Below are positions 713 to 38,134 of a DNA stretch of 40,781 nucleotides, in pieces. Source of the stretch: an uncultured bacterium (GTDB lineage: Bacteria; Acidobacteriota; Thermoanaerobaculia; Thermoanaerobaculales; Thermoanaerobaculaceae). The position numbers and the translations under genes are program-made. Location: the NCBI GenBank assembly GCA_937924755.1, contig CALEVZ010000023.1, positions 1 to 40,781 on the forward strand. The letters are read 5' to 3'. Under the pieces are notes generated by a model, which was not told the DNA's origin, did no database searches, and saw nothing but the letters and a program-made list of their open reading frames with translations. Positions within the stretch are counted from its first letter, which is position 1. Every line of letters begins with the position of its first letter.

Positions 713-763
713 TGTCCTTCGTGAGAGGACACCTTGCGATCGATGCGTCCTTGACAGAAGGAC
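713..763. promoter_or_regulatory. Tandem 17-bp palindromes, candidate operator pair
   Basis: Two inverted repeats of the same design occur in tandem. The first is GTCCTT-N5-GAGGAC at 714-730 (extended by a T/A pair to 713-731, one mismatch between arms). The second is GTCCTT-N5-AAGGAC at 747-763, with perfect arms. Their centres are 33 bp apart, about three helical turns, so two dimers would bind the same face of the DNA. The second copy covers the -35 hexamer of the promoter for the ATPase gene. This layout fits a repressor site. The regulator is not identifiable from the window. Confidence 0.55.
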
Positions 764-780
764 ACACGGGAGCCTATCCT
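751..780 (+). promoter_or_regulatory. Promoter of the AAA ATPase gene
   Basis: A consensus -35 box TTGACA (751-756) is followed after 18 bases by TATCCT (775-780, four of six consensus positions). The expected transcription start is about 787, exactly at the proposed GTG start codon, so the transcript would be leaderless. A GGGAG at 768-772 is too far (14 bases) to be a typical ribosome binding site for that codon. The -35 box lies inside the second palindrome. Confidence 0.55.
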
Positions 781-786
781 TGGCCC

Positions 787-2112
787 GTGCCGCTCCACCC
801 GATTCTCGCCGAGACGCTGCGGATGGCGCTCGAACCGTCGGAACCCACCCGCCGGACCCGGCGCGATGCCCGTCTCCCGGCGGTGCCCGGCAAGGTGCAC
901 TCGGTGATCGGCATGCGCCGTTCGGGCAAGACCACGTTTCTCCGCCAGCTCCTGGAGGAGCGGCGCGCGACCCTGCCGCCCGAGCGCGCGATCTTGATCG
1001 GGTTCGACGACGACCGGCTGGCCGGCATCGAGGCGGACCAGCTCGCGCTCCTTCTCGAGGAGTACTTTCGCATTCACCCCGAGCTGCGCGCACGCGAGCC
1101 GGTCCACTGGTTCCTCGACGAGATCCAGCTGGTCCCCGGCTGGGAGCGCTTCTGCCGCCGGGTGCTGGATACCGAGCGAGTCGAACTGGTGGTGTCGGGC
1201 TCGTCGGCGCGGCTGCTCTCGCGCGAGGTGCACACCGCCCTGCGTGGTCGCAGCATGGCCACGGTCATCCGCCCGTTCAGCTTCCGCGAGTTCCTGCGCC
1301 ACCGCGGCGAGGAGCCGGCACCGGGCGGTTTGCGCCCGACGGCCGTCGAGCGGTCACTGGTCGAGAAGCGCTTCCGGGAGTTCCTGGTCGAGGGCGGCTT
1401 TCCGGAGGTGCAGGGCCTTCCCGCCGCCGTGCGCATCGAGCTGCTCCAGGGCTATGTGGACACGGTGCTCTTTCGCGACGTGGTCGAGCGCTACAAGGTG
1501 TCGCAGGTGGAGGCGCTGCGCTGGCTGGTGCGCCAGTGCCTGCGCAACCCGGCCGGGCACTTGAGCGCGCATCGACTGTACCGCGATCTGCGCTCGCAGG
1601 GGTATGGCGTGGCCAAGGACACTGTGCACGCCCTGCTCGGGCACTTGACCGATGCCTTTCTGATCTCCGCCCTGTCGATCGCCACCGACTCCGAACGCCA
1701 GCGCCACGCCAACCCGCGCAAGATCTATCCCGCCGATCCGGGACTGATCCGCGCTTTCGATTGGAGCGGCCGCGCAAATCTCGGCCATGCTCTCGAAACG
1801 GCGGTCCTCAACGAGCTGGAGCGGCGCGGCGCCGAGGTGGGCTACGCGAAGACCGCCGAGGGCCTTGAGGTGGACTTCCTCGCCCGCCATCCGGCGGGCG
1901 GCGAGGAGCTGATCCAGGTGTGTGCGGAGGTTTCGGATCCGGCGACCCTCGAGCGTGAATTGCGAGGACTCCAGGCTGCCGGCAGGGAACACCCTCGCGC
2001 CGCCAAGCGCCTGCTCGCGCTCGATCGCGATGCCCTGCCGCATGCCGCGCCGCCGGGTGTCGAGGTCCAGCCGGCGTATGAATGGCTACTGACGCCACCC
2101 CAGGCGGACTGA
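787..2112 (+). CDS. ATP-binding protein, AAA_14 plus DUF4143
   Basis: The product is 441 residues. The N-terminal AAA_14 ATPase domain has Walker A GMRRSGKTT (residues 42-50) and Walker B WFLDEIQ with D111/E112. The SGSSARLLS and LRGR blocks that follow are typical of the family. The C-terminal DUF4143 region ends with a PD-(D/E)XK-like arrangement: E361-V-D363 followed by an LIQV strand. The family is common in defence islands and toxin-antitoxin-like loci; its biochemical role is not established. GTG at 787 is preferred because it matches the expected transcription start of the promoter; an in-frame GTG at 721 would lie within the operator. The gene ends 19 bases before a second start codon that opens the broken DUF499-like remnant. 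This suggests the original partner of this ATPase was the DUF499 gene now displaced to 10492. Confidence 0.82.
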   Translation: MPLHPILAETLRMALEPSEPTRRTRRDARLPAVPGKVHSVIGMRRSGKTTFLRQLLEERRATLPPERAILIGFDDDRLAGIEADQLALLLEEYFRIHPELRAREPVHWFLDEIQLVPGWERFCRRVLDTERVELVVSGSSARLLSREVHTALRGRSMATVIRPFSFREFLRHRGEEPAPGGLRPTAVERSLVEKRFREFLVEGGFPEVQGLPAAVRIELLQGYVDTVLFRDVVERYKVSQVEALRWLVRQCLRNPAGHLSAHRLYRDLRSQGYGVAKDTVHALLGHLTDAFLISALSIATDSERQRHANPRKIYPADPGLIRAFDWSGRANLGHALETAVLNELERRGAEVGYAKTAEGLEVDFLARHPAGGEELIQVCAEVSDPATLERELRGLQAAGREHPRAAKRLLALDRDALPHAAPPGVEVQPAYEWLLTPPQAD

Positions 2113-2130
2113 AACGGGAGGATCGAACGA

Positions 2131-2177
2131 CATGGCCCTCACCAATCACGAACGCGTCGGCAAAGCGCTGGAGCTGC
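2131..2177 (+). repeat. 47-bp direct repeat, left copy
   Basis: This 47-base stretch is identical to 10491-10537. Both copies begin with CATGG, where the ATG is a start codon, and encode the first 15 residues of the Swt1/DUF499 protein. Sequence on either side differs between the copies. The pair brackets the entire Cmr-CARF cassette. Confidence 0.95.
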
Positions 2178-2266
2178 GTGGGGGCCGGCTTGCACCCTGC
2201 GTGGAGCGCGAGCTGGCCCGCCACTGCCGCGACGGCGCACGGATCGAGAGCCTGTCGTACAATTGA
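2132..2266 (+). pseudogene. Truncated, chimeric 5' remnant of a DUF499/Swt1-HEPN gene
   Basis: A 44-codon frame starts at ATG 2132 behind GGGAGG (2116-2121) and stops at TGA 2264-2266. Its first 15 residues ([15 protein letters not shown]) are identical at DNA level to the intact DUF499 gene at 10492. The next residues (RLAPCVEREL) still align with the intact protein ([10 protein letters not shown]), but the DNA has diverged, so this half derives from a different paralogue. The frame then degenerates and stops, where the intact protein continues for 1118 residues. I read it as a chimera left by recombination between two DUF499 5' ends, probably non-functional. It could still be translated because it keeps a ribosome binding site. 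Confidence 0.7.
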
Positions 2267-2323
2267 TTCCTCGGAGCTGGCGCGGAATCGTTTGGCTTGC
2301 GATGGAGAGCGGCAGTCGTCACA

Positions 2324-2345
2324 CCGAACAGGTTGCTCTGTTCGG
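2324..2345. promoter_or_regulatory. Perfect inverted repeat just upstream of cmr1
   Basis: Arms CCGAACAG (2324-2331) and CTGTTCGG (2338-2345) are perfectly complementary over 8 bp and separated by six bases. The repeat ends 12 bases before the cmr1 start codon and directly abuts the GGGGAGG ribosome binding site (2344-2351). It could be a repressor operator at the Cmr promoter or an RNA hairpin affecting ribosome access. The best -10 box I see upstream is TACAAT (2258-2263), without a good -35. Confidence 0.5.
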
Positions 2346-2357
2346 GGGAGGCGAAGG

Positions 2358-3869
2358 ATGAGCCAACCGGCCAGGAATAGCGCTCCGGGTGCGGGGACAC
2401 AGGCCCCCAGCACACCGCGAGCCCCGTCGTACGAGCAGCTTCCGGCCGCGAAGATGCGCGCGGCGCGCGGCGGCCCGGAGGTTCGGGAGATCAGCGTTCA
2501 CCTCGAGGTGGTCACGCCGATCCTCGGCGGCGGTATCCAGACGCGAGCGGTCGACGAGGTCGATCTCATTCGGGCCGCCACGGTGCGTGGGCACCTGCGG
2601 TTCTGGTGGCGGGCGCTGTACGCGCATCGGTTTGCAAACGCGAAGGCGTTGTACGAACGCGAGAGCCAGGTCTGGGGGCGGGCGGCGACGGATGGGGGCG
2701 GTCGTTCTGCCGTCGAGATCCGCATCGACGTCGCGAAGACCGGCGCGATCGACGGGAGCGACATCCGGCTCTACGACTCGAAGGACGGCAAGGCGACGCC
2801 GGGTGCCTACGCGCTCTGGCCCGCGCGCGCAGAGAAGAAGACGGGCGCGGTGCCAGCGCCTCGCCGCCTGCCCGGCACGCAGTTCCGGCTCACGGTGAAG
2901 GTCGCCGGTAGTGCCGCGGATGAAGCCGAGGTCAAGAACGCCCTGCGCGCGTGGATTCTCTTCGGCGGCTTGGGCGGTCGTACGCGGCGCGGACTTGGGA
3001 GCCTCAGGGTAATAGAAGATCCCAGCTCGTGGTTGCCGTCCAAGGCGACGCGCGACGCCATCAAGGTCCTCTTCGGGTGCGACGTCCTCGCCTCGCCGGT
3101 GAACGCACCCGGCGATACGCCATGGCTCGGTGGCGCCGCGCTCCAGGTCGGCACGGCCGGCGCCGACGCGATGCAGGCGTGGATGACGGCGCTCGATTGG
3201 CTCAAGGAGTTCCGGCAGGGCACGGACGGCAGGCCCGGCGATCGCGCGCGAGAGCCGGGCACCGGCAAGCCGCCGCCCCAGCGGCCGTCGATCTCCAACT
3301 GGCCGGAGGGCGACAAGGTCCGCCGGCTCTCATTGCCAAAGGAGGGACTCCAGTGGGCTCACGACCCACGACACAACGGTACGCCTGCGTGGCCCCGGAC
3401 TGGATTCGGCCTCCCCATCATCGGGCAGTTTCAGCAGCAGAGCCGGATAGCGCGGCCGGGCTGGAAGAAGGGCGACAAGAAACCCAAGAATCTCTACTGG
3501 GACGAGCTTTCTTCCTCCCATCCGAACTACGGCACTGAACCGGCGGGGTTCGAGCTCCGCTGGCGATCCCCGAAGAGGGATCGGCCAGGCGAGTTTGAGG
3601 AGCACGACCGCCTCGCGAGCCCGCTCATCGTGAAGGCGCTGCCCCTCGCCGACGGTACCTTCGTGCCGTGTGCGCTCTGGCTGAACCGCGCCTACCCGGC
3701 AGGAGAGGTCATCCTCCGCGACGTGGACAACTCGCAAGCGCCGTTCGATCAACTTGTCGCCCCCGGCGACACGCCACAGTTCTCGGCTCTCAAGAACAAG
3801 CAGAGCCTCCGCCAGGCGTTCCTCGACTGGCTGCAGGCCAGGTACCACACGACGGTGGTGGCCCCATGA
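2358..3869 (+). CDS. cmr1: Type III-B CRISPR RAMP protein Cmr1
   Basis: Cmr1 caps the target-binding end of the type III-B (Cmr) complex and helps recognise the 3' part of the target RNA. The 503-residue product has the family hallmarks: a strand ending VTPILGGG near residue 56, the RGHLRFWWRALY block near residues 76-88, and a Gly/Arg-rich RAMP loop GLGGRTRRGLGS near 204-215. ATG 2358 is chosen because a GGGGAGG ribosome binding site sits just upstream and the conserved core begins about 45 residues later. The open frame extends further upstream, but only through the remnant and inverted-repeat region. It overlaps cas10 by four bases (ATGA). Confidence 0.93.
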   Translation: MSQPARNSAPGAGTQAPSTPRAPSYEQLPAAKMRAARGGPEVREISVHLEVVTPILGGGIQTRAVDEVDLIRAATVRGHLRFWWRALYAHRFANAKALYERESQVWGRAATDGGGRSAVEIRIDVAKTGAIDGSDIRLYDSKDGKATPGAYALWPARAEKKTGAVPAPRRLPGTQFRLTVKVAGSAADEAEVKNALRAWILFGGLGGRTRRGLGSLRVIEDPSSWLPSKATRDAIKVLFGCDVLASPVNAPGDTPWLGGAALQVGTAGADAMQAWMTALDWLKEFRQGTDGRPGDRAREPGTGKPPPQRPSISNWPEGDKVRRLSLPKEGLQWAHDPRHNGTPAWPRTGFGLPIIGQFQQQSRIARPGWKKGDKKPKNLYWDELSSSHPNYGTEPAGFELRWRSPKRDRPGEFEEHDRLASPLIVKALPLADGTFVPCALWLNRAYPAGEVILRDVDNSQAPFDQLVAPGDTPQFSALKNKQSLRQAFLDWLQARYHTTVVAP

Positions 3870-5650
3870 CCGCTCACCTGCTCCTGGTCACGCTCGGACC
3901 CGTCCAGGACTTCATCGCCCAGGCGCGCCGGACGCGTGACCTATGGTACGGGAGCCACCTTCTCTCCGAGCTCGGCCGTGCGGCCGCGCGCGCTCTCGCC
4001 GACGGCGGTGCGGAGCTCATCTTCCCGTCGCTCCAGGCAGGAAGCGTAGAGCTCCAGCCTTGCCCTGCCCCGCTGCGCCCCGATGGAACGCTACCTCGGA
4101 ACGTGGCGAACAAGCTCCTCGCCGAAGTCCCCTCGGGGGTCGATCCGCAAGAGCTGGCGCGCGCCGTGCGCGAGGCGGTCACGCGGTACTGGCGCGAAGA
4201 TCTTGCGGCACCCGTCAAGGCAAAATGTGCAGGCCTCCTTGCCTCCGGTGTCGATGACGTGTGGATCGAGCAGGTGGACACCTTCCTCGAGTTTGCGGCG
4301 AGCTGGTTGCCCATCACGGACTACGCCGAAACCCGCCGGCGGCTCGAGCACGCCATCGGCGCGCGCAAGATGCTGCGCGATTTCTGCGTGTGGACGAAGG
4401 GGCGGGGTGCCGTGCCGAAGTCGAGCCTCGACGGCGCGCACGAGACGGTGCTGCGGCCGCCGGACAGCCGCGATGCCAGTCTCGTGCGCAAATACCGCAT
4501 CGCCGATGGTGAGCAGCTCGATGCCATTGGGCTCGTCAAGCGCTGCGGGGGCGAGCCCGATCAGTTCGTGCCAGTCGTCAACGTCGCGCTCGCGTCGTGG
4601 GTGGATCTCGCAAGCCGCGTGGCCCCGTCGGAGCTCGATGGGCTCCGTGCCGCGTGCCGCGAGGCCGGCGTCTCGCGTGTCGAGCGAAGGGATCTGCCGT
4701 GTGCGGCACCGTTCCTTTTCGACGCCAGCGTCCTGCTCCCGAGCCGCTGGCGTTCGGTCTTCGAGGAGCAAGGACTGCCCGGCGACCCGGAGTCGTGGGG
4801 CCGCCGGCACGTCGGGCCGGTCCTCGACAAGCTTTCGGAGCCGTATCCCTACGTGGCGTGTCTGGTCGCCGACGGCGACCACATGGGGCGCGCGATCGAC
4901 CGACTGGGCTCCGCAGAGGAGCACCGCGCGTTCTCCGGGGCGCTCGCGCGGTTTGCCGGCGAGGCGCGCAACGTCGTCGAGCAAAAGCATCGCGGCGCCC
5001 TCGTCTACGCGGGCGGCGACGACGTGCTCGCGTTTCTCCCGCTTCCGGAAGCCCTCTCGTGCGCGGACGACCTCCGCAAGGGCTTCGCCGACGCGATGGC
5101 CTCCGCCTGCCAGTCGATCGCGGCCGCAGAGCGTCCGACGCTCTCGGTCGGCCTCGGGATCGGGCACCTCATGGAGAGCATGGGCGACCTGCTCGCGCTC
5201 GGGCGACAGGCAGAACGCGAGGCCAAGCGCGACCGCAACGCGCTCGCGGTGCTTGTGGACAAACGCTCGGGTGGCACCCGATCCTGGCGTGCATCGTGGA
5301 GCGACGATCCTGCCCGGGTGCTGCGCCATGCGACCGCGCTGCTGCAAGACCGCCTGTCCTCGCGCAAGGTCTACGAGATCGCGAGCACGCTGGCGCGCCT
5401 GCCGGGGCCCGGCGAGACGGCCGAACAGGGATGGGCACGTCTGCTCGCGCTGGAGGTCAGACGCTCGCTTGCTCGTGTTGAGGGCGGCCCCGTGAGCCCG
5501 CAGGAGGCCGGCCTCGAGCTCGACGAGGGCGCCGGCTATGCGGCGCTGCACGACCGCGTTCGCAGTTGGGTGGCACTCATGCTCATCGCCCGCACGTTCG
5601 CGCAGGCGACGCCTTGCGAGCGGCGGCGCGGGGAGGAGGTAGCGGCATGA
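3866..5650 (+). CDS. cas10: Cas10/Cmr2, HD-less large subunit with cyclase motif
   Basis: Cas10 is the large subunit of the type III effector complex. When target RNA is bound, its palm domain makes cyclic oligoadenylates from ATP. The 594-residue product opens directly with the Cmr2 palm motif (GPVQDFIAQARRTRDLWYGS, from residue 11), so there is no room for an N-terminal HD nuclease domain. The second palm domain has VADGDHMG followed by the catalytic G383-G-D-D386 motif in YAGGDDVL, so cyclase activity is expected while HD-dependent DNA cleavage is not. ATG 3866 overlaps the cmr1 stop (ATGA), and the stop overlaps the cmr3 start the same way. Function in this organism is inferred from the family. 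Confidence 0.93.
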   Translation: MTAHLLLVTLGPVQDFIAQARRTRDLWYGSHLLSELGRAAARALADGGAELIFPSLQAGSVELQPCPAPLRPDGTLPRNVANKLLAEVPSGVDPQELARAVREAVTRYWREDLAAPVKAKCAGLLASGVDDVWIEQVDTFLEFAASWLPITDYAETRRRLEHAIGARKMLRDFCVWTKGRGAVPKSSLDGAHETVLRPPDSRDASLVRKYRIADGEQLDAIGLVKRCGGEPDQFVPVVNVALASWVDLASRVAPSELDGLRAACREAGVSRVERRDLPCAAPFLFDASVLLPSRWRSVFEEQGLPGDPESWGRRHVGPVLDKLSEPYPYVACLVADGDHMGRAIDRLGSAEEHRAFSGALARFAGEARNVVEQKHRGALVYAGGDDVLAFLPLPEALSCADDLRKGFADAMASACQSIAAAERPTLSVGLGIGHLMESMGDLLALGRQAEREAKRDRNALAVLVDKRSGGTRSWRASWSDDPARVLRHATALLQDRLSSRKVYEIASTLARLPGPGETAEQGWARLLALEVRRSLARVEGGPVSPQEAGLELDEGAGYAALHDRVRSWVALMLIARTFAQATPCERRRGEEVAA

Positions 5651-6813
5651 CGACCACCGCCCGTCTGGCTCTCGTCCCGCGGGACGGCCTCTTTTGCATG
5701 GACGGCAGGGGCTGGCATACCAGCGCCTCCGGTCGCGGACACGGACTCGACTGGCCGTGGCCGTCCACGATCCTTGGCGCCCTGCGCACCGCCTGGGGAC
5801 GAGGCGAGGAGGCACGACGCGGCAGCCTTTTCAGTCGCGAGGATTGGAAGACGCATACCGCGCAAGTGCAGCTCGGACGCACCCTCGCCCTGCGTCGATC
5901 ACATGCAACGGAGTGGCGCTTCGAACACACCGTCTGGCCGGTCTCGGCGGACGCGATCTGGCTGGAGGGCCGGAAGGACGTATGTCGGCTCGATCCCGAA
6001 CCTGCCGACGTGCCCACCCTCGGACGGGACGACGACGGGGCGCGGGAGGGGCTCTGGCGCCCACGATTCCCCGCGGCGGGCAAGCCGCTGCCAGCCCCGC
6101 GACGGTGGCACTGCGAAGATTTCGTGACGTGGCTCGCTGGGCGATCGGTGCCGGCGCGGGGGCGCAGTGACGCTCTCGCGCCGGCCCGGCGGGTGCAGGT
6201 CCACGTGGGCATTCGCCCCGAGGAGCTCACGGCCGACGAAGGCGTTCTCTTTTCGCACGATGTCCTCGAAACGCTCGACCGCCAGATCGAATGGGCGATC
6301 GGCGCCGAGGTCACGGTCCCGAACGGCGTGTGCTCCAGCCTGGCGACGCTCGGCGCCGATGGTCGCCTCGCGCGCGTGGAACCCCTGCCCGCGGCGCTGT
6401 TCGAGCCTCCTCCACGGCTGCTCGAGGCGTTCCGGTCGTCAAGCTGGGGCCTGCGCCTCGTCGCGGTCACGCCCCTCTGTTTCGTGAAAGGCTGGTTGCC
6501 AGATGGCTTCGAGGAGCGGAACGGGAAGTACCGCGGCCGAGTGCCGGGGCTCGACAGCGACGTGGTCTTGCGTGCAGCTTTCGTTCCACGGCCGGTCCAC
6601 GTGTCGGGTTGGGACCTGGCGGCCGGTGCGCCCAAGCCGACCTCCCGCATGGTGGCGCCGGGAGCCGTCTATTTCTTCGAGCGGACCGACGGTAACCCCT
6701 TCGGCGAGGCCGAGGCCCGCGCGCTCTGGCTTGCGGCCCTCGGCACACGCACCGATGAGGGCTTCGGCCGTGTCGTCCCGGGACTCTGGAGCCCGGCAAG
6801 GAGCACGCCATGA
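5647..6813 (+). CDS. cmr3: Type III-B CRISPR RAMP protein Cmr3
   Basis: Cmr3 binds the 5' tag of the crRNA and bridges it to Cas10 at the foot of the Cmr complex. The 388-residue product begins with the family's N-terminal block (VPRDGLFCMDGRGW) and a WPWPSTILGALRTAWG segment near residues 37-52. It ends with a Gly-rich RAMP loop GTRTDEGFGRVVPG near residue 370. The start is fixed by the four-base overlap with cas10 at 5647-5650, and the stop overlaps the cmr4 start by four bases. Confidence 0.9.
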   Translation: MTTTARLALVPRDGLFCMDGRGWHTSASGRGHGLDWPWPSTILGALRTAWGRGEEARRGSLFSREDWKTHTAQVQLGRTLALRRSHATEWRFEHTVWPVSADAIWLEGRKDVCRLDPEPADVPTLGRDDDGAREGLWRPRFPAAGKPLPAPRRWHCEDFVTWLAGRSVPARGRSDALAPARRVQVHVGIRPEELTADEGVLFSHDVLETLDRQIEWAIGAEVTVPNGVCSSLATLGADGRLARVEPLPAALFEPPPRLLEAFRSSSWGLRLVAVTPLCFVKGWLPDGFEERNGKYRGRVPGLDSDVVLRAAFVPRPVHVSGWDLAAGAPKPTSRMVAPGAVYFFERTDGNPFGEAEARALWLAALGTRTDEGFGRVVPGLWSPARSTP

Positions 6814-7673
6814 AGACGAGACCATTCCTCCTGCACGCGCTGTCTCCGCTGCACGCCGGCACCGGCCATGCGGCGGACGTCATCGACCTGCCGACCGCAC
6901 GCTACAAGGCCACGGGAATTCCGTTCCTGCCCGGCTCCTCGATCAAGGGCGTGCTGCGGGACGCGCGTCGCGCCAGTGATCGCGACAAGACGGAGGCCGT
7001 GTTCGGTCCCTCGGACGACCCGGCCGCGCACGCGGGAGCACTCGTCGTCGGAGACGCGCGCCTCTTGGCGCTGCCGGTGCGGAGCTTCCGCGGCACGTTC
7101 GCGTGGACCACATCGCCGCTCCTGCTCACGCTCGCCAAGCGTGACCTCGAGGAGGCCGCCCTCTCAACTCCCAGCATCACCGGTCGCGGTGCGCTGCTCG
7201 CTCGAGGAAGCTGCTGCGTCCATCAGGACCGGCTGTACCTCGAGGACCTCGATCTGCCCGCAGCTGAGTCGGACGAAGCGACGGCCTGGGCGCAGAAACT
7301 CGCGCCGCTCGCGTCGCCCGGCGACGACATCTTCACGAAGCGCTTCGCCCTCGTCGACGATGACACGATGGCGTTTCTGTGGGAGACAGCGACCCAGGTC
7401 GACGCGCGCGTCCGCCTGGACGAGAAGACGCGCACCGTCGCGCCCGGCGCGCTCTGGCTCGAGGAGAGCCTGCCCCCCGAGACCCTGCTCATCGGCATCC
7501 TCGCGGCGGATCGAAGCCGTCGGCGCGGCGAGGAAATGTCCCCCGACGACGTCCTGGGCTTCGCGCTCGCCGGCGAGGAGGTCCTTCAGTTCGGTGGTAA
7601 GGCCACCACCGGGCACGGCCGGTGCCGGATCATCCCCATCATGCAAGAGGAAGCAGGTCATGGCGAACGCTGA
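6810..7673 (+). CDS. cmr4: Type III-B backbone RAMP and target RNase Cmr4
   Basis: Cmr4 forms the helical backbone of the Cmr complex and cleaves bound target RNA at 6-nucleotide intervals. The 287-residue product shows the canonical pattern: SPLHAGTG (12-19), VIDLPTARY (24-32), GIPFLPGSSIKGVLR (from residue 36), and the C-terminal Gly-rich loop GGKATTGHGR. D26 in the IDLP motif aligns with the catalytic Asp known from Cmr4 of other organisms, so target RNA cleavage is expected to be intact (inference from family). The start is set by the ATGA overlap with cmr3. The end overlaps cmr5 by 14 bases. Confidence 0.94.
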   Translation: MKTRPFLLHALSPLHAGTGHAADVIDLPTARYKATGIPFLPGSSIKGVLRDARRASDRDKTEAVFGPSDDPAAHAGALVVGDARLLALPVRSFRGTFAWTTSPLLLTLAKRDLEEAALSTPSITGRGALLARGSCCVHQDRLYLEDLDLPAAESDEATAWAQKLAPLASPGDDIFTKRFALVDDDTMAFLWETATQVDARVRLDEKTRTVAPGALWLEESLPPETLLIGILAADRSRRRGEEMSPDDVLGFALAGEEVLQFGGKATTGHGRCRIIPIMQEEAGHGER

Positions 7674-8040
7674 CACTCCCCAGAAGCCCCTTCTGCGCGA
7701 CCAGCGGCGTGCGCTCCACGCCTACGAGTCGGTCGGCGCGGTGCCGAAAGAACATTGGAAGGACTACACGATCGCGGTCAACGACCTCGGCGCCAACATC
7801 CTGCGCAGCGGCCTGTGCGCGGCCATCGCCGCCGTGCAGCGCCTCGGCAACCGTGGCGACGTCCTGCTCGGGCATCTGGCGTCGGCTGGTGTCCCTGGCC
7901 TCGAGAACGCGAGCGCACGGGATTTCGCGGCGCACGTGCGTAAGCTCGACGCGGACGCCTACGTGATGGCCACCCGGGAGCTGCTCAGGGTCGCGGCGTG
8001 GCTCAAGCGCGCGGCGCAGGCGACGTTCGAGGAGATGTAA
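7660..8040 (+). CDS. cmr5: Type III-B small subunit Cmr5
   Basis: Cmr5 is the small alpha-helical subunit that forms the minor filament of the Cmr complex beside Cmr4. The 126-residue product is helix-rich with the usual alternation of Ala/Leu and basic residues. Its segments LRSGLCAAIAAVQRL and VMATRELLRVAAWLKRAA match the family's conserved helices. ATG 7660 lies within the 3' end of cmr4, behind AGAGGAAGCAGG. Start and identity are supported by position between cmr4 and cmr6 and by length. Confidence 0.88.
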   Translation: MANADTPQKPLLRDQRRALHAYESVGAVPKEHWKDYTIAVNDLGANILRSGLCAAIAAVQRLGNRGDVLLGHLASAGVPGLENASARDFAAHVRKLDADAYVMATRELLRVAAWLKRAAQATFEEM

Positions 8041-8042
8041 CG

Positions 8043-9239
8043 ATGCGGCAGGCCCTTCAGAGCGTCGGCACTCCCGACCATGTGGCGCTCGCGTACGACG
8101 CGTGGGCGCCCGTGGGCGACGACGGCAAGGTGCCCGATAACGACAGGCCCGATTGGCTCTCCCAAATCGCCGGCATCTCCGTCTCGCCCGACTACTCCCG
8201 AAGCTTCGAGCGCTGGAGGAAGAGCTTCTCGGCGGCTGGCGATCGAGTCTTCGAGCTCGCGCTCGCGAGCCGGCTGCTCGTCGGGCACGGCAACTCGAGC
8301 GCGAGCGACATCGGCCTTACCGTGCATCACACATGGGGCGTCCCGCTCATCCCCGGCTCGGCGCTGAAAGGCCTGGCCGCGCATTATCTAGATGCCGTGT
8401 ATGGACCGTCGGACCCCGACAAAACCCCCTGGGAACAGGAAGGCGAAGAGCGCATCCGGGCGGCGTACCAGGGCGTTTCGTGGCGGGGCCGGCGCATCGA
8501 GCGTGGACCCGGTGAGGTCTACCGCGCGCTCTTCGGTGCGCCTGACGCCGATGGAGACGATGCGATGCGGGAGAATGGGCTAGAGGCAGGCGCAACGGCG
8601 GGCCTCGTCACCTTCCACGATGCGCTCTACGTGCCGGGTAGCGTGCGCGAAGACAAGCCCTTTGTGGCTGATGTGCTGACGGTTCATCAGAAGGGCTATT
8701 ACGACTCGGCGGGCGGAAGTTTGCCCAACGACTCCGACAGCCCCAATCCGGTGGCGTTTCTCACCGTGCGTCCCGGCGTGCGCTTCCTCTTGGCGCTGTC
8801 GGGCCCGCCGGAGTGGACGGAGCTCGCCGAGCGGCTGCTTCGAGACGCGCTGGAAAAGTGGGGCGTCGGCGGCAAGACGAGCGCGGGCTACGGGCGGCTG
8901 ATCGCGCCCGAGCGATCGGCGGCGTCCGCGCACTCGGCAACCACCGCTCCGCGCGGCACGCTTCCGAAAGCCGGCGATCGTGTCGAGGCGACGCTCCTCG
9001 AGGAACGCACAAAAAAGGGCGGCTGGAAGGCCAGACACGACCCCTCGGGTCTCGCTGGACTCATCCACAATAGCGCCGATGTTCCAGCGACGGCGAAGGC
9101 AGGTGACCGTCTGACGCTCACCGTGGCCGCGGTGAGCGACCGGGAGATCGCCTTTCAGGTTCCGACCCGGGGGCAACCGCCTTCCCACCGGAAACGAAGG
9201 GAAGGAAGTAGATGGCAGAGGCCAGGTCCACTCTCCTGA
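8043..9239 (+). CDS. cmr6: Type III-B RAMP protein Cmr6 with C-terminal extension
   Basis: Cmr6 caps the Cmr4 filament next to Cmr1. The product is 398 residues. The RAMP core has VPLIPGSALKGLAAHYL near residues 100-116, a TFHDALYVPG segment and the Gly-rich loop GVGGKTSAGYGRL near 274-286. After the core there are about 100 further residues. A linker leads to a small beta-rich segment (GDRVEATLLEE, then GGWKARHDPSG, then GDRLTLTVAAV) resembling an OB-fold or S1-like nucleic-acid-binding module, followed by a basic tail. ATG 8043 follows the cmr5 stop by two bases. The last 28 bases overlap the CARF gene. Confidence 0.9.
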   Translation: MRQALQSVGTPDHVALAYDAWAPVGDDGKVPDNDRPDWLSQIAGISVSPDYSRSFERWRKSFSAAGDRVFELALASRLLVGHGNSSASDIGLTVHHTWGVPLIPGSALKGLAAHYLDAVYGPSDPDKTPWEQEGEERIRAAYQGVSWRGRRIERGPGEVYRALFGAPDADGDDAMRENGLEAGATAGLVTFHDALYVPGSVREDKPFVADVLTVHQKGYYDSAGGSLPNDSDSPNPVAFLTVRPGVRFLLALSGPPEWTELAERLLRDALEKWGVGGKTSAGYGRLIAPERSAASAHSATTAPRGTLPKAGDRVEATLLEERTKKGGWKARHDPSGLAGLIHNSADVPATAKAGDRLTLTVAAVSDREIAFQVPTRGQPPSHRKRREGSRWQRPGPLS

Positions 9240-10489
9240 TCTGCACTGTTGGCGGGAGCGCTGAGCCGGTGGTCGCCGCGCTGAACTATTGGCAGCCCGT
9301 GCGGGTTCTCTTCGTCCACACTCCGCAGACGAAAGCCTACATCGAAGCCGAGATCGTTCTGAAGGCGCGCGACGAAGGCGTGGATCTCGATGCAGGACGG
9401 TACGACCTGTTCGAGTTGCCGGACGGGCAGGACCTCGCGAGCTGCCTCGACCGGCTGCAAGAATTGAACGAGGAGGTCGAGCGGTGGACACACCGCGGTG
9501 CTGGATACCAGGTCGTCGTCGACTTCACCGGCGGTACGAAGTGCATGTCGGCGGCAGCTGCGCTCCAGGCCCGCCGGTGGCCCTGCCTGTTCTCGTATGT
9601 CGGCGGCAGCGGGCGCACCAAGGACGGCGTGGGCGTCGTGATCTCCGGTGCCGAGAAGGTCGTCCACCAGGCGAATCCCTGGGATGCACTGGGGTACCAA
9701 GCTGTCGAGGACTTCGTCGCGCTGTTCGACCAGCACGCGTTCCGCGCGGCCGCGCACATCGCCGGGACGGCGAAGAAGCGTGTGAGCCGCCCGGATCGCA
9801 AGCGCGAGTTTGCCGTGCTCGAGCGGTTGGCCAGTGGGTTCGACGCCTGGGACAGGTTCGACCACAAGACGAGCAAGGCCAGTCTGGAGGACATCGACAA
9901 GTGCGCCAACGACTTGCGCGCCGTGGTCGGTCAAGCCAGGGGGAACGCAGTTCTCGCCGCCTTGAGACAGAGCCGGACTTTTCTCGAGGAGATGTGCCGG
10001 GCAGCCCATCCGGGTCGTCCTCACATCCTCGACCTTCTGACGAACGCCAGGCGCCGCAAGCAGGAAGGCCGCCTCGACGATGCCATGGCTAGACTCTACC
10101 GGGCCATCGAGGCTCTGGGGCAGGTGGCGCTGCGGGAGCGACACGGCATCGAAAACACCGGGAGCGTCCCGCTGGAACGCGTCCCCGGGACGCTCCGCCA
10201 GGCGTGGGCAGCTCGGGCCAGCGAAGGCCACGTGAAACTCGGCCTGCAAGACGTGTTCGAGCTCCTCGCAAGCCTGCGGGACCCGCTGGGCCAGAGGTTC
10301 CACGATGCAGGGCTTGGCGGCCAGTCGTCACCCCTGGTCGCGCGGAATCAGTCGATCCTGGCGCACGGTTTCCAGCCGGTCGGCGACAGTGTGCTGGAGA
10401 AGCTTTGGCCCGTCGCGCTCTCGCTAGCGGACCTCGACGAGGCGAGCTTGCCTTCCTTCCCCACCCTCGGCGAGAGAGGGGAGCACTGA
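9212..10489 (+). CDS. CRISPR-associated CARF-HEPN effector, TIGR02710 type
   Basis: This is the likely ancillary RNase of the Cmr system. The 425-residue product has an N-terminal CARF (Rossmann-like) domain with the strand [13 protein letters not shown] and the ligand-binding loop [13 protein letters not shown] (G107-S113). The C-terminal helical region carries an R-x6-H HEPN motif, R378 to H385 in RNQSILAHG. Family knowledge: CARF domains of type III effectors bind cyclic oligoadenylate made by Cas10 and activate the HEPN RNase for non-specific RNA cleavage. Which ring size activates it cannot be read from the sequence. The start overlaps cmr6 by 28 bases, and the stop lies two bases before the DUF499 start codon, so it belongs to the same transcript. 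Confidence 0.88.
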
Positions 10490-10490
10490 G

Positions 10491-10537
10491 CATGGCCCTC
10501 ACCAATCACGAACGCGTCGGCAAAGCGCTGGAGCTGC
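10491..10537 (+). repeat. 47-bp direct repeat, right copy
   Basis: Identical to 2131-2177. It begins one base after the CARF stop codon (10487-10489) and covers the first 15 codons of the intact DUF499 gene. Upstream sequences differ between the two copies, so homology starts sharply at the start codon. Confidence 0.95.
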
Positions 10538-34585: not shown

Positions 34586-37500
34586 CTACCCCGGGGCGAA
34601 GGCCGCCTCGACGAGCGCCTGCTGCTCCTGCTGGTGGCGGCGGGCGGAGCCGGTGGCCGGGCTGCCCGAGGGCGGCCTCCCCACGTAGCGGACGCGACAA
34701 TCCCCCAGCACCTCTTGCAAGAGCGGGGCCACGAAGCTCCAGGCGCCCATGTTGCGGGGCTCCTCCTGGACCCACCGCACGTCGTCGGGCGGGCCATAAC
34801 GCCCGACGATGGCCGCCAGTTCCCGGGCCGGGAACGGATTGAGCTGTTCCAGCCTGACCACCGCCGTTTCGGCGCCCAGCTCGGCCCGGCGAGCCAGAAG
34901 GTCGTAGGCCACCTTGCCGGTGCACAGCAGGAGCCGACGCACTGGCGTCGGCGGCGCCGGATCGTCCAAGACCAGGCGGAATTCGGCGTCGGTGAACTCG
35001 ACGGCGGCACTGCGCGCCTCGCGGGCGCGCAACAGGCTCTTGGGCGTCATCACCACCAGCGGCACGGCCGGCTCCAGGTACGCCTGCCGGCGCAGCAGGT
35101 GGAAGTGCTGGGCGGCGGTGGTGGGCACGGCCACCCGCAGGTTGTCGCCGGCGCACAGCTGCAGGAAGCGCTCCAGGCGCGCCGAGGAGTGCTCCGGTCC
35201 CTGTCCCTCCTGGCCGTGGGGCAGGAGCAGCACCAGGCGGGAGCGCTGCCCCCACTTCTCTTCCGCCGCCGCCAGGAACTGATCGATGACGATCTGGGCG
35301 CCGTTGGCGAAGTCGCCGAACTGCGCCTCCCACAGCACCAGGGCCTCGGGGCGGCTGACCGAGTAGCCGTACTCGAACCCGCACACGGCGTACTCGGACA
35401 GCAGCGAGTCGTAGATCAAAAAGGGCGCCTGGGAGGGCGAGAGGTGGCGCAGCGGCGTGTAGCTGGCGCCGGTCTTGAAATCCACCAGCACGGCGTGTCG
35501 CTGGCTAAAGGTGCCCCGCCGAGAGTCCTGGCCCGACAGCCGCACCGGAACCCCTTCCAGCAGCAGCGAGCCGAAGGCCAGCAGCTCCCCGGTGCCCCAA
35601 TCCACCGCGTCCTCGGCGAGCATGCGGGCGCGGCCGGCAAAGGCACGGGCCAGCTTGGGGTGCATGGTGAAACCAGCGGGAACCGCCGTCATACCCGCCA
35701 GCACCTCCTCCAGCGTGAAGCGATCCACCGCCGGCACCGGCCTCTCGGTCTCCACCGCCTCCGCCACCGGCGGCGCGACGGTGGCGCCGCCCAGATCCCG
35801 CGTCTCCGCGAATGCCTCCTCCAGCCGCGCCTTGTAGTCAGCCAGCGCCCTCTCCGCCTCCTCCAAAGTCAGGTCACCGCGGTTGATCAGTCTCTCGGTG
35901 TAGAGCTTGCGCACCGAGCGCTTGGCGGCGATACGCTCGTACATCAGGGGCTGGGTGTAGGCCGGCTCATCGGCCTCGTTGTGGCCGTGCACCCGGTAGC
36001 AGATGAGGTCCACGACCACATCCTTGCCGAAGGTGTGGCGGAACTCGAAGGCCAGATCCATCACCCGCAGACACGCCTCCGGATCGTCGCCGTTGACGTG
36101 GAAAATGGGCGCCTGCACCATCTTGGCCACATCGGTGGCGTACACCGAGGAGCGCGCGTCGACGGGGGCGGTGGTGAAGCCGATGCCGTTGTTGATGACG
36201 ATGTGCACCGTGCCGCCGGTGCGGTACCCGGCCAGAGCACTCATGTTGAGGGTCTCGGCCACCACCCCCTGCCCGGCGAAGGCGGCATCGCCGTGCAGCA
36301 GAACCGGCAGTACCCGCCGACGTTCGCCGTCGCCCAGACTGTCCTGGATGGCCCGCGCCATGCCCTCCACCACCGGGTTGACCGCCTCCAGGTGGGAGGG
36401 GTTGGAAGCCAGCGTCACCTTCACCCGGCCTCCGGCGGGGGAGGTAAACGTGCCCTTGGCGCCCAGGTGGTACTTCACATCGCCGGTGCCCTCACGGCTC
36501 TCCGGGTCCAGCTCCCCTTCGAACGCCCTGAATATCGTCTTGTAGCTCATGCCCACGATGTTGGAGAGGACGTTGAGGCGGCCGCGGTGGGCCATGCCCA
36601 TGACCACTTCTTCCACGCCGACGTCGGCGGCGCGGGACAGCAGCCGATCCAGCATGGGGATCACCGATTCCCCGCCCTCGAGACTGAAGCGCTTGTGGCC
36701 CAGATAGTTGGTGTGGAGGAACCGCTCGAAGGCCTCGGCGGCGTTGAGCTTGAACAGCAGGCGCCGCTTCTCCTCGGCGGTCAGCCACGCCTCCTTGTCG
36801 ACGCCCTCCACCCGTTCCTGGATCCACACCTTCTGGTCGGGTTCCTGGATGTGCATGTACTCGATGCCCACGGTGTCGCAGTAGGCGTCCTGGAGGATGC
36901 GCAGGATCTCCCGCAGGGTGGCCCGCTGCCGGCCAGCCAGGCCGCCGGTGAAGAACTCCCGGTCCAGATCCCAGATGGACAACCCGTAGCGCGCCAGTTC
37001 CAGCTCCGAGTGGCGGGGCATCTCGCTGCCCAGAGGATTGAGGTGGGCCAGCAGGTGGCCCCGCACCCGGTACATGTTGATCAGGTGCAGCACCGGCGCC
37101 TGCTTGGCCACCAGCGCATCGGCGCCGGCGGCGAGGGCGGGGTTGACGTCGCGCGCCAGCCGGAAGGGCAGGTGGGGGGCGTCCAGGGCGGCGAACATCT
37201 CCTCGTAGAAATCCTCCTCACCTGCCAGTAACCCGGCGAGGACGCCGAGGAACGTGCCGCTTTCCGCCCCCTGAATGACGCGGTGATCGTAGGTGCAGGT
37301 CAGGGCCATGACCTTGCTGATCCCCATCCGGGCCACCACCTCCGGATCGGCCAGCTGGTACTCGGGCGGATACGCGATCGAGCCGGCGGCGAGGATGAAG
37401 CTCTGCTCGGGCATGAGACGGGGCACCGACTGGGAGGTTCCCAGCATCCCCGGGTTGGTGAGACTCACGGTCGTGCCGGCGAAGTCCTCGGGGGAAACCT

Positions 37501-38134
37501 GGTTGGCGTTGACCCGTCGCAGCAGGTCGTTGTAGGCCGCGAAGAAGGTGGCGAAGTCCATCTGCTCGACGGCCTTGAGGTTGGGCACCAGCAGCGTGCG
37601 CGTGCCGTCACGGCGCACGACGTCCACCGCCAGGCCGAGGTTCACGTGCTCAGGGATGATGCGGTGGGGTTGACCGTCGATCTCGCGGTAGACGGCCCAC
37701 ATCCCCGGGCGGGCCTTGAGGGCGCGCACCAGCGCCCAGGCGAGGATGTGGGTGAAGCTGACCTTGCCCGCCTGGGAATCTTTCAGGTGGTGGTTCAGGA
37801 GGGCGCGGTTCTCCTCCAGCAGCTTGACCGGCACGGTGCGCACGGTGGTGGCGGTGGGGACGGTGAGGGAGGCGTCCATGTTGGCGGCCAGTCGTGCGGC
37901 GCCGCCGCGCAGCGGTTCAGCGCCGCGCGGCGCCACGAGGTGTGCTTCCTCGCCAAAAAAGGCGGGGACGGGCGCCGGGGCAGGCACCGTTCGTCCTGCC
38001 GGCGGCCGGTAGTCGGCGAAGAACTCCTGCCAACTCTCCCCCACCGAGGCGGGATCCGCCAGGTAAGCGCGGTACATCTCGTCCAGCAACCAGTCGTTGG
38101 GCCCGAAGGCCGATCTGCGTGCATCTTGGCTCAT
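34586..38134 (-). CDS. kgd: Fused 2-oxoglutarate decarboxylase/dehydrogenase E1 with E2 succinyltransferase domain
   Basis: The 1182-residue product combines two TCA-cycle activities. An N-terminal segment (NDWLLDEMYRAYLADPASV) is followed by a Pro/Ala linker, an E2o acyltransferase domain (about 85-320) with catalytic D283-H284-R285 in TYDHRVIQGAESG, and a complete ThDP-dependent E1o domain (about 330-1182). E1o motifs include GMAHRGRLNVL, HGDAAFAGQGVV and YRVHGHNEADEP. There is no lipoyl domain. This is the Kgd architecture known from Actinobacteria, where it decarboxylates 2-oxoglutarate and, with partner E2/E3 proteins, forms succinyl-CoA. ATG 38134 follows GGAAGGTGGGA. It is divergent from larE. 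Confidence 0.93.
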   Translation of the reverse strand: MSQDARRSAFGPNDWLLDEMYRAYLADPASVGESWQEFFADYRPPAGRTVPAPAPVPAFFGEEAHLVAPRGAEPLRGGAARLAANMDASLTVPTATTVRTVPVKLLEENRALLNHHLKDSQAGKVSFTHILAWALVRALKARPGMWAVYREIDGQPHRIIPEHVNLGLAVDVVRRDGTRTLLVPNLKAVEQMDFATFFAAYNDLLRRVNANQVSPEDFAGTTVSLTNPGMLGTSQSVPRLMPEQSFILAAGSIAYPPEYQLADPEVVARMGISKVMALTCTYDHRVIQGAESGTFLGVLAGLLAGEEDFYEEMFAALDAPHLPFRLARDVNPALAAGADALVAKQAPVLHLINMYRVRGHLLAHLNPLGSEMPRHSELELARYGLSIWDLDREFFTGGLAGRQRATLREILRILQDAYCDTVGIEYMHIQEPDQKVWIQERVEGVDKEAWLTAEEKRRLLFKLNAAEAFERFLHTNYLGHKRFSLEGGESVIPMLDRLLSRAADVGVEEVVMGMAHRGRLNVLSNIVGMSYKTIFRAFEGELDPESREGTGDVKYHLGAKGTFTSPAGGRVKVTLASNPSHLEAVNPVVEGMARAIQDSLGDGERRRVLPVLLHGDAAFAGQGVVAETLNMSALAGYRTGGTVHIVINNGIGFTTAPVDARSSVYATDVAKMVQAPIFHVNGDDPEACLRVMDLAFEFRHTFGKDVVVDLICYRVHGHNEADEPAYTQPLMYERIAAKRSVRKLYTERLINRGDLTLEEAERALADYKARLEEAFAETRDLGGATVAPPVAEAVETERPVPAVDRFTLEEVLAGMTAVPAGFTMHPKLARAFAGRARMLAEDAVDWGTGELLAFGSLLLEGVPVRLSGQDSRRGTFSQRHAVLVDFKTGASYTPLRHLSPSQAPFLIYDSLLSEYAVCGFEYGYSVSRPEALVLWEAQFGDFANGAQIVIDQFLAAAEEKWGQRSRLVLLLPHGQEGQGPEHSSARLERFLQLCAGDNLRVAVPTTAAQHFHLLRRQAYLEPAVPLVVMTPKSLLRAREARSAAVEFTDAEFRLVLDDPAPPTPVRRLLLCTGKVAYDLLARRAELGAETAVVRLEQLNPFPARELAAIVGRYGPPDDVRWVQEEPRNMGAWSFVAPLLQEVLGDCRVRYVGRPPSGSPATGSARRHQQEQQALVEAAFAPG

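Follow-up and report, generated by a model that had tools for sequence, protein, structure and literature searches.

Two palindromes upstream of a candidate defence ATPase gene, close to the start of the window (the whole stretch of 40,781 nucleotides analysed here), form a real and selected operator on the promoter of this gene, as the initial annotation had proposed, and they are kept upstream of its orthologues. Judging from sequence co-variation and a structural model, we consider it likely that this tandem operator is bound by dimers of the ATPase itself through a winged-helix domain, and that binding is probably repressive.

The palindrome pair, its promoter and its surroundings

The first palindrome, GTCCTTCGTGAGAGGAC (GTCCTT-N5-GAGGAC, positions 714-730), and the second, GTCCTTGACAGAAGGAC (GTCCTT-N5-AAGGAC, 747-763), neither of them assigned to a strand, were found with the sequences and the 33-bp offset, start to start, that had been described. 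The second also covers a perfect TTGACA, as previously noted, at 751-756 on the + strand. This -35 element is followed, after a spacer of 18 bp, by the -10 element TATCCT (775-780, + strand), and the two constitute the only sigma-70-like promoter match in the region searched (600-2600). Such a matched pair had been judged unlikely to arise by chance, and our counts bear this out: the pattern GTCCTT-N5-RAGGAC gives three strand-matches in the window, while 100 dinucleotide shuffles average 0.04 and none reaches three. Together with the family-wide and control-promoter scores given below, these shuffle counts rule out a chance origin of the pair. No other copy of the exact GTCCTTN5AAGGAC was found elsewhere in the 3.35-Mb genome. 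When the same genome was searched for TGTCCTTN5AAGGACA with up to two mismatches, only the pair at 714-763 matched at one mismatch; two extra places appeared at two mismatches, which is not above the control (three matches), so that no regulon is apparent elsewhere in this genome.

The ATPase gene occupies positions 787-2112 of the + strand, begins with a GTG and encodes 441 amino acids. We take GTG 787 as the true start, and not that of a longer open reading frame from 721, because the alignments with orthologues begin at residue 1 of this frame. Since just six bases separate the -10 element from this codon, the promoter geometry predicts that the ATPase mRNA should be leaderless.

The pair had also been proposed to control the whole island. 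This part of the annotation found no support: neither the Cmr nor the Swt1-DUF499 genes carry a copy of the motif, and with no further copy anywhere in the window we rejected the idea that these sites also regulate them. Transcription from the ATPase promoter may run on into the Cmr genes, because the region 600-2600 shows no terminator-like site. These genes belong to a type III-B operon (2082-10489) that comprises Cmr1, Cas10/Cmr2, Cmr3, a Cmr4-like RAMP, Cmr5, Cmr6 and a Csx1/Csm6 CARF-HEPN protein. The operon and Csx1 lie between the two copies of an exact 47-bp repeat (2131-2177 and 10491-10537), which corresponds to the first codons of the Swt1-HEPN/DUF499 gene, duplicated directly after the ATPase gene. 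In three other loci (L011, L022 and L010) the ATPase gene is directly followed by a start similar to that of the Swt1-HEPN/DUF499 gene, which suggests that the two genes may have been separated by insertion of the Cmr cassette. The window further holds the end of a DUF4276 gene (PADLOC HEC-01A; 1-432), cut by the contig start, and a 1181-amino-acid protein (34589-38131) in which acyltransferase and 2-oxoglutarate dehydrogenase E1 domains are fused, an arrangement known from actinobacterial Kgd.

Conservation of the operator across the ATPase family

A scan of genome contigs recovered 47 relatives of the ATPase, many of them 60-75% identical, in records from Planctomycetota, Acidobacteria, Nitrospira, Gemmatimonadetes, Spirochaetes, Verrucomicrobia, Eisenbacteria, Latescibacterota, Acidimicrobiia and beta-, gamma- and deltaproteobacteria. 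Nearly all close relatives carry the same palindrome pair 5' of the ATPase gene. The half-sites are thus conserved in orthologous promoters, the opposite of the outcome that the initial annotation had named as refuting its proposal. Site 1 is kept as well, in a more degenerate form than site 2, and the TTGACA is conserved in most close orthologues. The consensus of 34 upstream regions reads aAgGTGtCCTT....gAaGgcC.GATT....a.AATcTGTCCTTGACAgAAGGACAC, and in these regions the start codon lies 29-36 bases from the centre of site 2 (31 or 32 bases in 25 of the 34). Arm sequences vary between clades around a constant layout, and some variants alter both arms jointly, for example GGCCTTGACAGAAGGCC. 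The half-site of the family can be written (A/T)(T/G)T[G/A/C]TCCTT.

We scored 118 distinct upstream regions long enough for the purpose, drawn from phylum-wide searches and other loci, with a pair score that rewards two palindromes with common half-sites and leaves their spacing free between 26 and 40. The score exceeded all 40 shuffles in 73 of the 118 regions, and 58 of these 73 pairs were spaced by exactly 33. The best pair stood at exactly 33 bp in 78/118 family regions, against 11/86 promoters of other genes used as controls. This spacing was the best one in 67 of 77 close members and in 11 of 41 distant members. Mean z of the pair score was 4.31 for the family and 0.33 for the control promoters. 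In a count over 396 genomes from the phylum of the window, 6 of the 11 exact copies of TGTCCTTN5AAGGACA lie directly 5' of PDC-S01 family genes (one of the six precedes an ATPase copy cut by a contig end), while a reversed control pattern gave two matches.

Several variations on this layout were observed. In one locus (L128) three tandem palindromes about 33 bp apart precede the ATPase gene, the last one ending at the start codon, and one relative beyond the 47 above, 72% identical to our ATPase, is encoded on a viral contig from IMG/VR (L085) and is preceded by both operator sites. Certain clades have the second palindrome running into the start codon, and the first codons, for example ATGCAAGGACAA, then contain a half-site. 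By eye, the distances between site 2 and the start codon seem to cluster by clade near 22, 11, 1, -6 and -11 bases, partly at intervals close to one helical turn. A distant clade in the Desulfobacterota set (L181-L185, L079, L100) shows another type of palindrome 5' of the ATPase gene, for example CCGGTAATAATTATTACCGG. Among distant plasmid homologues, 25-35% identical, one (L165) seems by eye to have a similar pair, and two (L167, L169) to have other inverted repeats upstream. On plasmids L171, L166 and L172, distant DUF4143 ATPases were found in or beside defence genes, in the orders cas3-ATPase-cas4 and hsdR-ATPase-methyltransferase and after qatD.

The palindromes could in principle work at the RNA level, as hairpins of a 5' leader, with 6-bp stems and 5-nt loops able to fold, and their extension to the start codon in some clades would suit this reading. 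We consider it highly improbable: both sites of the window lie upstream of the predicted +1, no Rfam match was found in the window, and among arm mismatches the C-A/A-C type (45) is nearly as frequent as the wobble-compatible T-G/G-T type (57). On these three grounds an RNA element was rejected.

The ATPase as candidate binder

The protein matches PF13173 (AAA_14, 102 bits) and PF13635 (DUF4143, 51.9 bits), both over their gathering cut-offs, and the PADLOC PDC-S01 model PDLC04787 over residues 36-436 (E 1.3e-90), which makes it a member of the PDC-S01/AAA_14-DUF4143 ATPases (COG1373). The C-terminal domain of this family has been described as PD-(D/E)XK-like, and PDC-S01 is listed as a candidate defence gene, with validation pending for most PDCs (PMC12988326). 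A WYL domain, the mark of defence regulators of the BrxR/CapW type, is absent both from the ATPase, where Pfam finds AAA_14 and DUF4143 only, and from the other open reading frames scanned in the window. An AlphaFold model of the protein (pLDDT 90.3, pTM 0.90) places a winged helix between the AAA+ and the C-terminal (DUF4143) domain, at residues 237-297 (positions 1495-1677, + strand), formed by helices 241-253, 261-270 and 277-289, the last being the recognition helix, and by a strand at 293-296. The ATPase is thus predicted, on the basis of its modelled fold, to carry a winged helix of DNA-binding type. The only hint of this domain in the sequence is a weak match of residues 241-285 to the RpoN box of sigma-54 (E 0.026-0.035), which places K277 opposite the first R of ARRTV. 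In the RpoN box, replacing R455 or R456 by alanine leads to loss of binding to the -24 promoter element (PMC7175178). The likeness is confined to this one small domain and does not imply a sigma factor function for the ATPase.

The best matches among solved folds are the archaeal AAA+ ATPases PABY2304 and Sso1545 (Z 15.7 and 14.8 over about 270 residues, at about 16% identity), followed by the NLR and CED-4 nucleotide switches. Orc1/Cdc6 initiators, which likewise combine AAA+ with a winged helix and which read inverted-repeat DNA, are also present among the matches; their identity to the ATPase is about 15%, and here the sites sit on a promoter, with no origin context. The presence of Orc1/Cdc6, MuB and TnsC in the fold search could nevertheless mean that the pair serves an initiator- or transposition-like ATPase for docking or recombination, either for mobility or as a reference sequence, and does not control transcription. 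That the gene spreads alone and occurs within defence clusters, such as the cas3-ATPase-cas4 and hsdR-ATPase-methyltransferase arrangements, is compatible with this idea. However, the positions of the sites are fixed relative to the promoter and the start codon in close orthologues. In 25 orthologues, moreover, the first 400 bases 3' of the gene contain no palindrome, so there are no transposon-like ends and the pair was ruled out as the ends of a mobile element. We therefore regard a docking or recombination role as quite improbable.

We then considered which protein reads the operator. Paired inverted repeats over a -35 element are typical of dimeric repressors, and this resemblance, together with the fact that the window begins at a contig end and leaves its upstream neighbours mostly unseen, would fit a distinct trans-acting regulator whose gene sits at another place in the host genome or is no longer present in the window. 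Yet no gene family recurs beside the ATPase across orthologues (the biggest common neighbour cluster holds 4 loci), although the same pair is found across many phyla, where an outside regulator would need to have the same specificity each time. The genome itself, as described above, shows no regulon of the motif, and co-variation points to the winged helix of the ATPase. A separate regulator is hence unlikely, and the dedicated repressor put forward by the initial annotation gives way to the ATPase as the likely regulator of its own gene, because its winged helix co-varies with the operator and no neighbour recurs.

The co-variation was measured by comparing operator divergence with divergence in protein windows of 40 residues, overall protein divergence being removed, across 55 sequences. 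Residues 252-291 were the best predictor of operator divergence (rank 1 of 397 windows, r 0.375; median r 0.038, best window elsewhere 0.22). This region kept its first rank when the E262 clade or several outliers were left out, in 84 of 100 random subsets, and also after thinning to less than 72% identity, where the difference was close (r 0.48 against 0.42 for the best window elsewhere). Of the top 25 co-varying columns, 10 fall within 257-290 (p 7e-6). Restricted to the H262 clade, the scan ranked the winged-helix window only 8th of 133. In a first column scan, on the -8 base, the winged helix was not enriched overall (Mann-Whitney p 0.67), and the divergence-corrected window scan was chosen after this result had been seen.

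Individual residues follow the half-site too. His262 goes with G in 107 of 126 half-sites and Glu262 with C in 46 of 50, while Asn262 is found with A (18) or G (16). GGCC arms occur in 5/5 sequences with Arg277 and in 2/26 with Lys277 (Fisher p 1e-4, uncorrected for relatedness); Arg277 is also found with TCTCC arms. Placed on the tree, single-residue co-variation fits in direction, with few independent events and non-significant sign tests. Because these events are too few, the co-variation claim rests on the whole-domain test, and the chemically sensible pattern at residues 262 and 277 illustrates rather than proves it. Direct binding of the operator by the ATPase is the most likely reading of the co-variation.

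Proposed mechanism and its place among known systems

We propose that each palindrome would be bound by an ATPase dimer through the winged helix between AAA+ and DUF4143, helix 261-270 (for example residue 262) and recognition helix 277-289 (for example residue 277) reading the half-site TGTCCTT. With about three helical turns between the two sites, up to four protomers could assemble side by side. Because the -35 element of this predicted leaderless promoter lies inside site 2, occupancy should block RNA polymerase and would keep the ATPase scarce. It is from this overlap that we favour repression as the probable effect, while activation from site 1 is possible. Nucleotide state, invading DNA or assembly might act as the trigger that releases the protein and frees the promoter. 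A more speculative extension, to which we give low confidence, treats PDC-S01 proteins as AAA+/STAND-like switches with sequence specificity that rest as assemblies of up to four protomers on the promoter of their own gene. The putative nuclease effector would then both repress and store itself, and on infection promoter and effector would be freed together.

A paired operator over the own promoter is a familiar trait of autoregulated defence genes, such as those of controller proteins, antitoxins and BrxR/CapW. In those systems the binder is a small dedicated regulator, whereas here it would be the ATPase itself. A precedent for a promoter-binding ATPase regulator is the mycobacterial IniR, which has an Sso1545-like ATPase domain (PMC5760070). 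IniR differs from the ATPase of the window in its MalT-like domain, in carrying DNA binding on a separate C-terminal domain, and in acting as an inducer of iniBAC (PMC5760070). The gene family described here is known; neither an operator nor autoregulation of PDC-S01 is described in the literature searched, which covered few subscription papers, and within that scope the operator is new, the variation being that a large ATPase would itself be the binder.

Such an operator, built into the gene and paired with a predicted residue-to-base pattern, makes a concrete and cheap test of DNA binding by PDC-S01 proteins, and it offers a natural DNA ligand for structural work on them. It can also be used as a marker for correcting start codons in family members. 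For the biology of the family, the operator suggests that PDC-S01 expression needs holding down. PDC-S01 is abundant: among the (candidate) defence systems of prokaryotes it is reported to rank fourth in frequency (PMC12988326).
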